From positions 1 to 32,128 of the forward strand of contig NZ_JAILFV010000002.1 in assembly GCF_024697385.1 (NCBI RefSeq): a stretch of 32,128 nt of DNA, given 5' to 3'. The number at the start of each line of letters is the position of its first letter. The first letter of the stretch is position 1. This document shows, piece by piece, positions 15,376-20,062 of the stretch. Source of the stretch: Anaerovibrio sp. Lineage in GTDB: Bacteria > Bacillota > Negativicutes > Selenomonadales > Selenomonadaceae. The notes beneath the pieces were generated by a model. The model had not been told where the DNA came from and ran no database searches. It saw only the letters and a program-made list of their open reading frames with translations. The position numbers and the translations under genes were made by a program.

Positions 15376-15469
15376 GATTTAATACAGAAAAAAATCTTGA
15401 AAATTTGTCATATATACACCATAATATTAAGAGAAATTTTGAAAATATTTATCCTCTGGGAACAGTTGC

Positions 15470-15524
15470 CGAATTTCCCCTTTGAAGAAGGAGAATAAGC
15501 ACTGTAAAGCAGAGGGAAAATTCG
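15470..15524. repeat. Long imperfect inverted repeat upstream of the ClpX-like gene
   Basis: CGAATTTCCCCT (15470-15481) pairs with AGGGAAAATTCG (15513-15524) over 12 positions with one mismatch, around a 31-nt loop. The flank of 15376-15573 shows no gene. It may be part of a longer decayed element that continues into the structured repeat at 15574. Confidence 0.5.
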
Positions 15525-15573
15525 ATGAAATTCAGGAAGTTTACTGAACCCCTGGGAATAATCCTCATTTGAT

Positions 15574-15736
15574 ATAACGCCATTGTTAACAGTTTTCCGT
15601 AGGGGAAATGTTCAAATCAGCGTTCCCTTAAAGGGACTGACTTCCTGTCGCAATTTGGCGGAAGATATTAACTCACCGCCTGTTATTACCATTACGCCCC
15701 CACCTTAAGTGGCCAGGGGACAGTTCTTACTCGTTA
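15574..15736. repeat. Structured intergenic element, copy A
   Basis: It begins ATATAACGCCATTGTTAAC and ends near CTCGTTATAC, 20 bp before the ClpX-like gene. Its hairpins in plus-strand order are TTTTCC/GGGGAA (15593-15607), TCAG/CTGA enclosing CCC/GGG (15617-15640), GGCGG/CCGCC (15657-15680), and CCAC/GTGG (15700-15712) flanked by CCC/GGG. Copy B at 19886-20062 has the same order, with compensated base changes in two stems. No protein is encoded. It may be a MITE-like repeat or a noncoding RNA. Confidence 0.65.
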
Positions 15737-15755
15737 TACAGAAAGGTAGACTCTT

Positions 15756-17039
15756 ATGAACAGTAATGCACCTACTATTACCTGCAGTTTCTGCAAGCGC
15801 AAGGTGGTAGCAAACACACAGTACGATGTACCAATATATGATCCACGGTCAGGTTTTTCCCTATGCGCAAACTGCATAAAGGATATATATCATCTTATAG
15901 AAGACCATCAGCAGGATGAGAACATCCGCCAAAATGAAGAAACAGAACAGGCCATCAATGATGAACTGACCCGCATAAAACCTCATCTGGTCAAGGAATA
16001 CCTGGATCAATATATAATCAATCAGGACCATGCAAAAAAAGTGTTGTCAGTAGCCATCTACAATCATTATAAGCGCATGAAATATGGCTTCAAGCATCCT
16101 GAAGGTGACGAAGAAATAGAAAAATCAAATGTCATAATTCTTGGACCTTCCGGCTGTGGAAAAACTGCACTTCTATCCCACCTTGCCAGGATGCTCGATA
16201 TTCCTTTTGCGGTAACAGATGCCTCCAGCCTCACAGAAGCAGGCTTTGTAGGTGCAGATGTGGAAGTAGCAGTCCGCAACCTTTATTACGCAGCAGATAA
16301 GGATATCAGTCGATGTGAACATGGCATCATATACCTGGATGAATTCGACAAAATTGCCAGAAAATCAGGTGAAAATAATACCATAACAGCAGATCCGGGA
16401 CACGAAGGTGTTCAACAGGCATTACTGAAAATGCTGGAGGGTAATGTGGTTGAATTTACTGCCCGAGGGCAAAGGAAGCATCCTGAAGCTCCTACCATAA
16501 AGGTCGATACCAAAAACATCTTGTTTATAGTTGGTGGAGCCTTTGTAGGCATTGAAAAAATAATTGCCAAAAGAATTCACAAGAATGATGCCAATATAGG
16601 CTTTGGCGCCCAGGTAGAGGGCAAGGGGGAAAAACCTGATTTTGATGAGCTTATACATCAGACGACCCCTGAAGATTTGATGAAGTTTGGTATCATTCCG
16701 GAAATAATCGGGAGACTGCCTATTATCTGCACCCTGGAAAATCTCGATGAGGATGCCTTGCTGCGCATACTTACCGAACCGAAAAATGCTCCGGTCAAAC
16801 AATATCAAAAACTCATGGAAATGGATAATGTCCAACTGGAATTTGATAAAGATGCCTTACAGGCAGTTGCCCAAAAGGCAATTGAAAGAAAAACCGGGGC
16901 ACGCTCCTTAAAGGGCATCATCGAGGATACCATGCTGAACATAATGTTCGATATACCTCAATCTGATGCCAATCGCAAAGTCACCATTACCGCCGACTGT
17001 ATCAACGATGGTGCAGATCCCCTGATAGAAGAAATTTAA
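15756..17039 (+). CDS. clpX: Divergent ClpX-family AAA+ unfoldase
   Basis: ClpX unfolds tagged proteins and feeds them to ClpP. The 427-residue protein has an N-terminal zinc finger (Cys10, Cys13, Cys37, Cys40), Walker A GPSGCGKT (130-137), Walker B IIYLDEF with Asp195-Glu196, the RKH pore loop (240-242), the IGF loop that docks on ClpP (281-283), and the sensor-2 region TGARSLKG. It departs from canonical ClpX in several places: C-x23-C instead of C-x18-C in the finger, pore loop GFVGAD instead of GYVGED, and DPGHEGVQQ instead of DVSGEGVQQ. clpP, tig and lon are not next to it, and it sits alone behind a structured repeat. It may be a second, specialised ClpX; a main clpX elsewhere is expected but not visible. 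The ATG follows AAAGGTAG. Confidence 0.88.
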   Translation: MNSNAPTITCSFCKRKVVANTQYDVPIYDPRSGFSLCANCIKDIYHLIEDHQQDENIRQNEETEQAINDELTRIKPHLVKEYLDQYIINQDHAKKVLSVAIYNHYKRMKYGFKHPEGDEEIEKSNVIILGPSGCGKTALLSHLARMLDIPFAVTDASSLTEAGFVGADVEVAVRNLYYAADKDISRCEHGIIYLDEFDKIARKSGENNTITADPGHEGVQQALLKMLEGNVVEFTARGQRKHPEAPTIKVDTKNILFIVGGAFVGIEKIIAKRIHKNDANIGFGAQVEGKGEKPDFDELIHQTTPEDLMKFGIIPEIIGRLPIICTLENLDEDALLRILTEPKNAPVKQYQKLMEMDNVQLEFDKDALQAVAQKAIERKTGARSLKGIIEDTMLNIMFDIPQSDANRKVTITADCINDGADPLIEEI

Positions 17040-17050
17040 ATACACAAGAG

Positions 17051-17099
17051 AAGAGGCTATGACAACTTGCAAAAGCAAGCTGACATAGCCTCTGTTTTT
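17051..17099 (+). terminator. Terminator of the ClpX-like gene, shared with the kinase gene end
   Basis: AGAGGCTATG (17052-17061) pairs with CATAGCCTCT (17084-17093), with CTTGC-AAAA-GCAAG (17066-17079) inside. GTTTTTA follows on the plus strand. The T-tract overlaps the stop codon of the convergent histidine kinase gene, for which the same hairpin can act with a weaker tail. Confidence 0.85.
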
Positions 17100-18750
17100 A
17101 TTTGTTGACAGTAAGTTTTCCCTGAAGAGCCTGCTGAATAATGCTGAACATAGCTTTTACATCAACCGGCTTGGTGATATGTGCATTCATGCCACATTCA
17201 AAGGATTTTCTTATATCCTCCTCAAAGGCATTGGCCGTAAGTGCCAGGATTGGTATTGTCTTGCAGTCTGATTTGCCTGATGCACGAATCTTGGAGGTAG
17301 CAGTGAGCCCGTCCATGTAAGGCATCCGCACATCCATCAGTATCAGGTCATATGTGCCCGGAGCATTTGACATATACTGGCTTAAGGCGTCCCTGCCATT
17401 TTCTGCCACATCCACAACCATACCTTTTTTGGTTAAAAGCTGCTTATCGATTTCAAGATTAATGGCATTATCGTCCGCCAAAAGTACCCGCTTGTCAATA
17501 AACAATTCCTGCTGCAAATCATCTTCCTTAGGCTGTGCCACTACGGCAATATCCAAGTCCACCTCAACCCTGAAGGTACTTCCCTGTCCTTTGGTGCTTT
17601 CGAACTCGATTTCGCCACCCATCTTTTTTACAATATGGTTACATATTGCTAAGCCAAGACCTGCACCACCATATATGCTGGTACTGTCATCATATTCCTG
17701 TTCAAAGGCCTCAAATACCTTGGATTTAAAGTGATCATCAATGCCTACGCCCGTATCCTTGACCTCAAATTCCAGAGACTGTCTGCCAATCTCCTCACCT
17801 ATCAGCTTCACATTGAGTTCAACACTGCCAAATCTCTGGGTATATTTAACAGCATTTGACAGCAAATTGCGCAAAACCTGACTGAAGCGCTCTGCATCAA
17901 AGTTAAAGCTCTTTGCAATTCCTTCATCCACATTCAACTGGAAATTGATTTTTTTCGCATATGCATTGGCTCTTGCCTTCTCAGCCACCCCTTCAATAAA
18001 CGGGCGGAAAAGTACAACATTCTCAGCCAGCTTAATATCATCATTTTCAATATGAGCAATATCCAAAACATCATCTATCATATCCAGCATCATTCTGGAA
18101 GACACATCAATTTTGTCGAAGCAATACTCCACATAGTCCTTTTCCTGAGTACGGCCTTTTCCCAATTCTGTCATACCGACAATTGAATTAAGTGGGGTCC
18201 GCAGCTCGTGACTCATGTGGAACAAAAACTTTGATTTTGCCTGGCTGGCCTCCTCAGCATGATGAAGGGCCCCCCGGAGAGCTTCCTGCATCTGGCTCTC
18301 TTCCCGAACTATATTGGTAAAATCATGCTGGGTAACCACCAAAACATCCCTTTCGTCAAGATCAAGATAATGCATGGAAATTTTCTTATATTGTAAATGA
18401 GGCATATTGGGAAGATCTACCCGATAAACGCCGGTAAACTCACCAAATTTATCCACAGTGTCAATAATATTAGGCAACTGAAACATCTTGCCACAAACAA
18501 TACGGTCTTCTTCCACAAGATACTTCTGAATGACCTTATCTACCCCCTGATCATAATCCATGCTGAAGGATTTTTCATCAAGTTGAGGCTCCGCAAGCCA
18601 TCTTACAATATGAAGCATATGTGTATCAATATCAATATAACCAACAAAATCGATTACATCCTGGAGAGCACTTTCAATGATACTATGCTCCTTGTCAATA
18701 TTCAGTTCGCCGGACTTTACTTTTTTGTCATTTCTATTTTCCATATCCAT
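17098..18750 (-). CDS. Cytoplasmic hybrid histidine kinase with receiver domain
   Basis: No membrane helix or signal peptide is visible in the 550 residues, so it should sense a cytoplasmic signal. An N-terminal sensor region of about 150 residues looks PAS-like but has no clear motif. The HisKA site is FHMSHELRTPLN (His181), followed by an ATPase with an N box (NLLSNAVKYT, about 295), DTGVGI (332) and GGAGLGLAI (361). A receiver domain begins at RVLLADDN (421), with phospho-Asp473 in LILMDVRMP and a conserved Lys in HITKPVD. It lies 37 nt after aroF and may be cotranscribed; no output domain or partner regulator is nearby. The start follows AGGATAGG. Confidence 0.92.
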   Translation of the reverse strand: MDMENRNDKKVKSGELNIDKEHSIIESALQDVIDFVGYIDIDTHMLHIVRWLAEPQLDEKSFSMDYDQGVDKVIQKYLVEEDRIVCGKMFQLPNIIDTVDKFGEFTGVYRVDLPNMPHLQYKKISMHYLDLDERDVLVVTQHDFTNIVREESQMQEALRGALHHAEEASQAKSKFLFHMSHELRTPLNSIVGMTELGKGRTQEKDYVEYCFDKIDVSSRMMLDMIDDVLDIAHIENDDIKLAENVVLFRPFIEGVAEKARANAYAKKINFQLNVDEGIAKSFNFDAERFSQVLRNLLSNAVKYTQRFGSVELNVKLIGEEIGRQSLEFEVKDTGVGIDDHFKSKVFEAFEQEYDDSTSIYGGAGLGLAICNHIVKKMGGEIEFESTKGQGSTFRVEVDLDIAVVAQPKEDDLQQELFIDKRVLLADDNAINLEIDKQLLTKKGMVVDVAENGRDALSQYMSNAPGTYDLILMDVRMPYMDGLTATSKIRASGKSDCKTIPILALTANAFEEDIRKSFECGMNAHITKPVDVKAMFSIIQQALQGKLTVNK

Positions 18751-18760
18751 TAACCTATCC

Positions 18761-18796
18761 TATCCTAACTCAAAATCATATCCTAACTCAAAGCTC
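18761..18796. repeat. 18-bp tandem duplication at the aroF end
   Basis: TATCCTAACTCAAA occurs at 18761-18774 and again at 18779-18792, a period of 18 bp. The second copy covers the aroF stop codon (18788-18790); the first fills the aroF-kinase spacer. It looks like a recent slippage duplication. Confidence 0.65.
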
Positions 18797-19819
18797 ACGA
18801 ATGTATAGACCCGAATCCTGCATAAAGCCAGATAATGCTTTTATCCCCTTCATCACCTCCACATAATGTTCAGGAGTTAATGACTGCTGCCCATCAGACA
18901 GGGCCACAGCCGGATCCGGATGAACTTCCATCATAATCCCATCTGCTCCTGCAGCCACAGCAGCATAAGCCATAGGCTTTACCATACGCCACTTACCTGT
19001 CCCATGGCTGGGATCCACCACTATTGGTAAATGGGATAAATGCTTTATTGCAGCGACTGCGCTTAAATCCAACGTGTTTCTGGTATAGGATTCATAACTG
19101 CGTATGCCCCGCTCACAAAGTATTACCTTATTATTGCCCTCGTTAACTATATATTCAGCAGCACTCAGCCACTCCTCAATTGTAGCCGACATACCTCTCT
19201 TGAGTAAAACCGGCTTGTTCTGCCGGCCCAGCTCCTTTAATAGCCGGAAATGCTGCATATTTCTCGCTCCCACCTGGAGCACATCTACATACTCAGCTAC
19301 CTTCTTCACATTTTCCACTTCGGTAACCTCGGATATAATCTTCAAACCTGTTCGTTCTCTTGCATCAGCCAGATACTTCAGCCCAAGCTCCTCCAGGCCC
19401 TGAAATGAGTACGGGGATGTTCTGGGCTTATATGCCCCTCCCCTGAGGAATTGTGCTCCACCGGCTTTTATTATTTCAGCGCTGGCCATAATCTGTTCCT
19501 TGGATTCCACTGCACAGGGCCCAGCCATAACCACCACATTTCCATTTCCAATCTTGATGCCATCAACATCTATTACAGTAGATTCAGGATGAAATTCCCT
19601 GCTGACCAAGGTGTAATTCTTGGATATGTTGACTGTCTTTTCAACCCCTTTCAGGGATTCAACATCCAGACAGCACATTTTTTCCTTGTCACCAATAACA
19701 CCAATTATTTTTTGTGCAGCTCCCTGCATCACCTTGGCAGAAAGGCCATTGGCTTCTACTGCTTCCATGACTCTTTGTATACTGTTTTCATCTGCATCTG
19801 AACGCATGATTATAACCAT
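18788..19819 (-). CDS. aroF: 3-deoxy-7-phosphoheptulonate synthase (DAHP synthase, type I-beta)
   Basis: The enzyme joins PEP and erythrose 4-phosphate, the first step of the shikimate pathway. An N-terminal ferredoxin-like regulatory domain (about 1-70, [15 protein letters not shown]...) is typical of the Bacillus/Thermotoga type. The barrel shows MAGPCAVES (metal Cys), [49 protein letters not shown] and IMMEVHPDP. The length of 343 residues is normal. It lies downstream of pheA, with structured element B between them. The start follows GAGGG. Feedback control through the N-terminal domain is known for this type but not readable here. Confidence 0.96.
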
Positions 19820-19885
19820 AAAACCCTCACATCAGCTAACAAAAGAAATCGGCTGATTAATTATCTTCTTTAGCACTTAAACGAT

Positions 19886-20062
19886 TATAACGCCATTGTC
19901 CAAATTTTTCTTTTAAAAAAGAAAACTCTTCCAATTAGCGTTTCCCCTAAAGAGACTAACTGCGTGTCTCAACGAGGTGGGAAATATGTTCACCACCTGT
20001 TAAAGCTTGTCCCCTCCACCTATAGAGGAAGGGGACATCTTACACCGAGTTATTACTTGTTA
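19886..20062. repeat. Structured intergenic element, copy B
   Basis: It fills most of the pheA-aroF spacer and overlaps the last codons of pheA. It begins TATAACGCCATTGTCC. Its hairpins in plus order are TTTTCTT/AAGAAAA (19907-19924), TTAG/CTAA (19935-19959), AGGTGG/CCACCT (19975-19998), and TGTCCCCT/AGGGGACA (20008-20037) with CCT/AGG inside. It aligns along its length with copy A (shared blocks AGCGTT, AAAG-GACT-ACT, CACC-CCTGTTA, AGGGGACA, GTTAT). Confidence 0.65.

Follow-up and report, generated by a model that had tools for sequence, protein, structure and literature searches.

Copies of a dispersed, gene-less mobile element with hairpins near both ends in Anaerovibrio and other Bacillota, probably moved as single-stranded DNA

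The stretch of Anaerovibrio sp. DNA analyzed here (contig NZ_JAILFV010000002.1, positions 1 to 32,128; hereafter 'the window', 32,128 nt) carries two related intergenic sequences, A and B, which an earlier note, made from the letters alone, had proposed to be either a MITE-like repeat (miniature inverted-repeat transposable element) or an undescribed non-coding RNA. We found that both belong to a multi-copy, gene-less, dispersed mobile element; this non-coding element is real, widespread and recently active. Most probably it is a non-autonomous palindrome-associated transposable element (PATE) of the IS200/IS605 type, ∼87–190 bp long and with a hairpin close to either end. A Y1-type transposase acting in trans would move it in single-stranded form; that the intermediate is single-stranded, that the enzyme is of the Y1 type and that it acts in trans is what we infer. 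Few studies have dealt with PATE-like elements in bacteria, and copies of the present family number in the hundreds in two classes of Bacillota. Judged by the papers searched, the family is novel and without prior description: in the portions of the literature covered by our search (PMC3119063, PMC7290912, PMC6006769 and PMC3733652 included; ISfinder lay outside the search), no such repeat was found for Anaerovibrio, Selenomonas or Clostridia.

Copy number, forms and distribution

BLAST searches of the 2.28 Mb host assembly (E ≤ 1) produced 44 matches to A and 52 to B. These were merged into 64 places, first by position and then manually, where one copy had given a second row or its palindrome had also matched on the opposite strand. 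Many of the host copies are located at contig ends; the unlabelled repeat seems to break draft assemblies. A covariance model built from 35 host copies (R1) matched 64 of the 189 genomes of the host's family, in which 14 of 30 genera were represented; within the genus, 12 of the 16 genomes had matches. Thus, the further copies that the earlier note had suggested looking for exist both in the host and in its relatives.

A scan of named contigs with a sequence pattern, which held part of hairpin 3 and so biased the copies found towards that string, gave at least 80 stretches: 75 came from records of Anaerovibrio, Selenomonas and Schwartzia and, among the matches listed, five were in three assemblies labelled Hungateiclostridiaceae, Bacillota and Eubacterium. 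No element was found in viral contigs in the scan. A second model (R2), built from 32 copies including these five, had matches in 24 of 58 genomes of a clostridial order, single-contig genomes with many copies among them; R2 itself was built in part from copies of the pattern scan.

The element exists in a long form (∼168 bp) with a 26-bp module, in a short form (∼143 bp) without this module and in mini-forms of 87–90 bp. Copies with both ends are mostly ∼87–190 bp long, with two interrupted copies of ∼330 bp, and the element is too short for a transposase gene. Three 90-bp mini-forms, L135, L137 and L139, were seen in one genus genome (G005); the flanks of L137 and L139 are homologous, and L135 has beside it a similar flank that lacks the element.

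In windows sampled from another genus genome (G008), 13 identical copies were present among 38 pattern-matched ones, which indicates that the element has been active recently. Copies are nearly excluded from genes. None of the 80 full copies and four of the 30 partial copies in G008 and in the copy-rich genome G166 were inside an open reading frame (ORF) of at least 120 aa; by a looser rule, 3 of 71 copies in a set of 8-kb loci were inside an ORF.

Insertion site and target

The set for comparison of filled and empty sites comprised 15 left-end matches from G005, 11 of them with a right end. Empty sites were identified in related genomes for 7 of these 11 loci, and each has one TTATA or TTATT, with no duplication, while filled sites read [T/G]TATAACG at left and CTCG-TTAT[A/T] at right. 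At locus L123 a single base separates the site from that of the closest relative, and TCATT is read in two more relatives.

Pentamers were counted at 227 insertions, with interior anchors, free pentamers and shared flanks collapsed. At the left, 218 insertions have TTATA, none has TTATT and nine have a pentamer other than TTATA; at the right, 201 have TTATA and 26 another pentamer, TTATT in 17 of them. When the pentamers vary they never agree (0 of 26 insertions with a deviant right and 0 of 9 with a deviant left pentamer). The single pentamer at empty sites and the disagreement between end pentamers together show that no target is duplicated and that one side is the target; one end of the element is fixed and the other is flanked by a variable pentamer. 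Head-to-tail copies have one TTATAA in common.

A classical TA-duplicating MITE (IS630/Tc1-like) would explain TATAACG at both ends, but empty sites keep the full TTATA or TTATT, in conflict with symmetric TAACG ends and a duplicated TA, and such an element is at odds with the disagreement of end pentamers. We consider this reading extremely improbable, and for the compared loci it is refuted by the empty sites. What stands of the proposed MITE-like repeat is a multi-copy, gene-less and mobile sequence with maintained pairing; the lack of target duplication sets it apart from classical MITEs. Flanks of 87 copies have no consensus beyond TTA-T[A/T], and on this ground an integron attC array and an IS110 bridge-RNA element were rejected; IS110 bridge-RNA elements have an extended common target sequence of ∼11–14 bp.

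Read on the minus strand, the sequence is [T/A]ATAA-CGAG...CGTTATAA-, the arrangement of IS200/IS605 elements, with insertion beside a specific pentanucleotide on one side only, as in the IS200/IS605 mechanism. Transposases of this family place the element on the 3' side of a tetra- or pentanucleotide, without duplication, according to the available portion of PMC7290912.

Covarying hairpins

We realigned 104 non-redundant copies on the basis of sequence only. Stems 1, 3 and 4, as well as the inner part of stem 1, contain alternative Watson–Crick pairs (an outer stem example: CG 84, GC 11, TA 5), and the covarying hairpins 1 and 4 are located close to the two termini. For 28 pairs, chosen after inspection of the alignment, 40 same-branch double changes between Watson–Crick pairs were inferred; 100 simulations under our own null model, in which columns evolve independently on the same tree, gave 2.5 on average and at most 6. 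The paired cells with both sides changed numbered 221 (simulated maximum 117), and the unpaired cells 312 (simulated minimum 428; 300 simulations). A phylogeny-aware test of all column pairs was not significant (E of 0.15, 0.7 and 2.3 for the best three pairs); these three best pairs are stem pairs. RNAalifold applied to 48 host copies recovered mainly hairpin 3. Pairing is maintained in the family, and covariation, which the earlier note had asked for in an expanded alignment, was found for the proposed stems. Concerted correction of palindromes through template switching could also yield double changes. With compensated changes in its main stems, the family lends itself to learning what base pairs and loops a single-strand transposase reads.

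As for individual stems, the change from GGCGG/CCGCC in A to AGGTGG/CCACCT in B, described in the earlier note, is real, and across the 104 copies this stem shows GC/CG and CG/TA alternatives. The second change, TCAG/CTGA to TTAG/CTAA, is present in the two sequences, but the pairing is not kept in the family: of 63 long-form copies that were parsed, 13 of them apparently wrongly, only 32 allow all four pairs.

Strong covariation, and an internal hairpin 3 core kept between Negativicutes and Clostridia, might also be expected of a dispersed structured non-coding or cis-regulatory RNA whose stems covary through RNA folding. Against an RNA stand the single-change intermediates, which on the plus strand are G–T 39, A–C 52 and others 56; G–T and A–C numbers are similar, so that neither strand looks like RNA, and the suggested minus-strand RNA finds no confirmation, as no G–U excess exists on either strand. 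A search for a known Rfam family gave no match at gathering score in the window apart from three tRNA hits. Permissive scans of the elements produced only weak hits, far below gathering scores, the best of them being RAGATH-32 on L099 (22.8 bits; gathering 41.8) and snoR117 on L482 (21.4 bits; gathering 42). Copies occupy unrelated intergenic sites, between genes in all four relative gene orientations. An RNA is therefore very unlikely and, on present evidence, the element is not an RNA gene. In the clostridial copies L360, L482 and L460 (minus strand), a string that we take to be T-box-like stands beside hairpin 4 (AGGTGGCGGGTACCGC in L482); Rfam gave no T-box match for L360 or L482.

Likeness to IS605 left ends

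IS605-type left ends were taken from Anaerovibrio, Schwartzia and Selenomonas-group genomes and from a Y1 locus of one clostridial assembly; tnpA was identified by PF01797, and the tnpB-like frame behind it was judged by eye. These ends have a flank TTTAA, then ∼15 nt, then GTCC[T/C]CCACCTCTTAGGTGGGGG or a variant. The minus strand of our element reads [T/A]ATAA, then ∼14 nt, then GTCCCCCACCTCTATAGGTGG[G/C]GG or a variant. When seven element ends were compared with six IS605 left ends, all 42 comparisons gave p ≤ 0.015 against dinucleotide shuffles, which lose the hairpins. The IS605-type elements (∼1.8 kb) resemble ours in left-end hairpin sequence and in its distance from the cut, and they also have an AT-rich left pentamer ending in TAA; they differ in the right end, target pentamer and gene content. 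A resemblance to a known transposon end, an outcome considered in the earlier note, was thus found, and it favors the mobile-element half of the earlier proposal.

Orientation relative to replication

The minus strand, with the IS605-like left end, is on the G-rich strand for 33 of 48 full copies in G008 and 29 of 32 in G166 (measured in 20-kb windows); partial copies show the same in 15 of 20 and 9 of 10 cases, respectively. Where neighbor genes converge or diverge the count is 23 of 30 in the two genomes, so gene direction alone does not explain the bias. In the single-contig genome G209, all 20 among the matches listed (of 39) have this orientation. In the 8-kb locus set, whose genomes overlap the others, the count is 51 of 71 copies. 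The G-rich strand is the lagging-strand template; orientation is thus linked to replication in three of four genomes. The plus strand of the window is C-rich, with which the orientations of A and B agree. IS200/IS605 transposases use the lagging-strand template, as stated in the available part of PMC6006769. In G193, G208 and G224, full-length IS200 tnpA genes mostly switch strand along the single contig, which fits lagging-strand insertion; GC skew was compared with tnpA strands in G224 only, where the full-length 165-aa tnpA genes are on the G-rich strand in seven of seven cases.

Proposed mechanism and the search for the mover

In the mechanism that we favor, the minus strand would be read as target [T/A]ATAA, CGAG.., ∼14 nt, hairpin 4 (the left end), hairpin 3, the optional hairpin-2 module, hairpin 1 and ..CGTTATAA (the right end). 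Both end hairpins would fold while this strand is the single-stranded lagging-strand template; a Y1-type transposase supplied in trans would recognize them, and the element would be excised as a single-stranded circle, to be inserted 3' of another [T/A]ATAA with no duplication of the target.

Several observations weigh against this mechanism. The resemblance to IS605 was shown for the left end, with no demonstrated match at the right end, and the likeness of left-end hairpins may be convergence, given that the shuffles lose hairpins. The short inverted termini (TTATAACG/CGTTAT) are unusual for PATEs, which lack terminal inverted repeats; most of this inverted sequence is target plus cleavage-site-like sequence. 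In G224 no orientation bias was seen (9 of 16 among the matches listed, of 17), and the tnpA control in this genome falls to 9 of 11 if four other Y1 matches are added. In one published genome IS605 copies have no strand preference (10 of 22, in the available part of PMC7290912), which shows that an orientation bias is not universal. While Y1 genes (PF01797) are present in 10 of the 16 genus genomes (carriers with Y1 include G000 and G209), they were not found in genus genomes G005, G008, G009, G013, G015 and G016, of which G005, G008 and G009 are 99–100% complete with many copies and G015 and G016 are also copy-rich, nor in the copy-rich G166, G185 and G191. From those carrier genomes that are drafts, a multi-copy insertion sequence could be lost. 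A profile scan complemented by eye revealed no Y1 gene bounded by element ends, and no autonomous copy was found in a 3.04 Mb sample biased to element surroundings. The latter search paired left-end and right-end profiles 230–4000 bp apart; its only two hits were ∼330-bp elements seemingly interrupted in hairpin 4 (compare L234 and L237 below). With Y1 undetected in copy-rich genomes and no autonomous copy, the mover is one that we infer; G008 and G166, with no detected Y1 gene, pose the question of what moves the element.

These same absences, together with the short inverted termini and the single TTATAA common to head-to-tail copies, could be explained if the repeat is moved by another duplication-free enzyme, such as a recombinase, of the tyrosine or another type, whose substrate would be a circle having CGTTATAACG as its palindromic junction. 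It would then resemble the Haloquadratum 'small mobile repeats', whose mode of movement is called enigmatic in the available part of PMC3119063. However, the asymmetry of a fixed end and a variable end and the replication-linked orientation are predictions of single-strand Y1 transposition, and the left end resembles IS605; we regard another enzyme as rather unlikely. A similarly low probability, if anything a lower one, is given to an ancient non-coding single-strand transposon lineage of Negativicutes and Clostridia, in which the hairpin 3 core (CAACGAGGCGGGAGATATGCTC) would serve beyond end recognition and the mover would not be a recognizable Y1 transposase; several copy-rich genomes with no Y1, including the one with 13 identical copies, suggest such a mover. 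An IS91-type (Y2) mover was rejected: a Y2 transposase is present in only 1 of the 16 genus genomes (G011).

Comparison with known systems

The closest known system is that of the PATEs of Haloquadratum walsbyi; the following rests on the available portion of PMC3119063. PATEs of this archaeon are likewise gene-less and multi-copy, with near-terminal palindromes, a short target oligonucleotide at one end and no target duplication. Their palindromes resemble IS605 ends, a likeness that our element shows at its left end. A similar puzzle exists there: insertions are strain-specific although IS200-type transposase genes are nearly all broken. Our element differs in sequence, host domain, target and short inverted termini, and it has an internal conserved hairpin 3 and an optional hairpin 2; also, stem covariation and replication orientation were measured for it. 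The SMR-A repeats of Haloquadratum are similar in length (∼110 bp), in inverted termini, in the absence of duplication and in that the mover is unknown; they insert into IS605/PATE palindromes, whereas our element inserts at TTAT[A/T], almost always outside ORFs, and, unlike SMR-A, has IS605-like end hairpins. Repetitive extragenic palindromes (REP) and REPINs with their RAYT transposases are, in the available parts of PMC3116915 and PMC8266576, short intergenic DNA of palindromic form, with a Y1 relative as the presumed mover; our element is longer and has other ends. The examined loci showed no linked RAYT, although no search with a RAYT-specific model was made.

Copies A and B in the window

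In agreement with the earlier description, A and B can be aligned over their full length in pairwise comparison and have the hairpin order in common; they are the only R1 matches in the window. Both stretches are real; the limits previously given for B extend 13 bp too far right. Coordinates are listed in Table 1.

Table 1. Coordinates of the two element copies and their parts in the window
Feature	Position	Strand	Remarks
Copy A	15572..15733	+	long form, diverged member; left pentamer ATATA; R1 match 15572-15737, 103.5 bits
Target pentamer TTATA of copy A	15734..15738	+	right side of element
Copy A hairpin 1	15576..15624	+	AACGC...GCGTT; near left end, which is right end on minus strand; covarying pairs 7-51, 8-50
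Copy A hairpin 3	15657..15680	+	GGCGG/CCGCC; internal conserved core
Copy A hairpin 4	15697..15719	+	near right end, which is IS605-like left end on minus strand
Copy B	19885..20049	+	long form, subfamily ending CACCGAG; R1 match 19885-20053, 190.1 bits
Target pentamer TTATT of copy B	20050..20054	+	right side; overlaps pheA stop codon (minus strand, 20053-20055)
Copy B hairpin 1	19889..19942	+	
Copy B hairpin 3	19975..19998	+	AGGTGG/CCACCT
Copy B hairpin 4	20009..20036	+	GTCCCC/GGGGAC

The limits of copy A were set by comparison with other copies and with empty sites. Genus relatives have GATA(TA)GAAAGG, without the element, at this site before the clpX-like gene; the exact empty site is not recoverable because the non-coding DNA of the relatives is too diverged. 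Downstream of copy A begins the clpX-like gene (15756-17039, plus strand), 17 bp beyond the end of the target pentamer. Copy B sits between pheA and aroF (both on the minus strand; aroF starts at 19819); the names clpX-like, pheA and aroF are our presumed identities of these genes. When folded as DNA, and compared with shuffles, A is weakly more stable (z −1.96) and B clearly so (z −4.96). The ∼130 bp just upstream of copy A (15430-15570) have, by eye, no evident counterpart in genus relatives, where the upstream region is shorter.

Parts of the element were also seen apart or altered. Matches to the left end alone are common (146 groups, of which many are weak or correspond to the palindrome of the element itself), and a solo hairpin 1 outside the element was observed in L040 (1748-1799) and in the 5' flanks of L095 and L099. 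In L095 (1641-1713), hairpin 4 contains a foreign 73-bp insertion with long inverted ends (CAATGTCATTTAGTTAAG...); insertions starting like this one are present in hairpin 4 of the G166 copies L234 and L237. The three insertions recall the Haloquadratum SMR-A repeats that attack PATE palindromes, as described in the available part of PMC3119063. In a Schwartzia copy (L208, 701-887), the hairpin-2 module also occurs inside hairpin 4, inverted as judged by eye, as if it were itself mobile.

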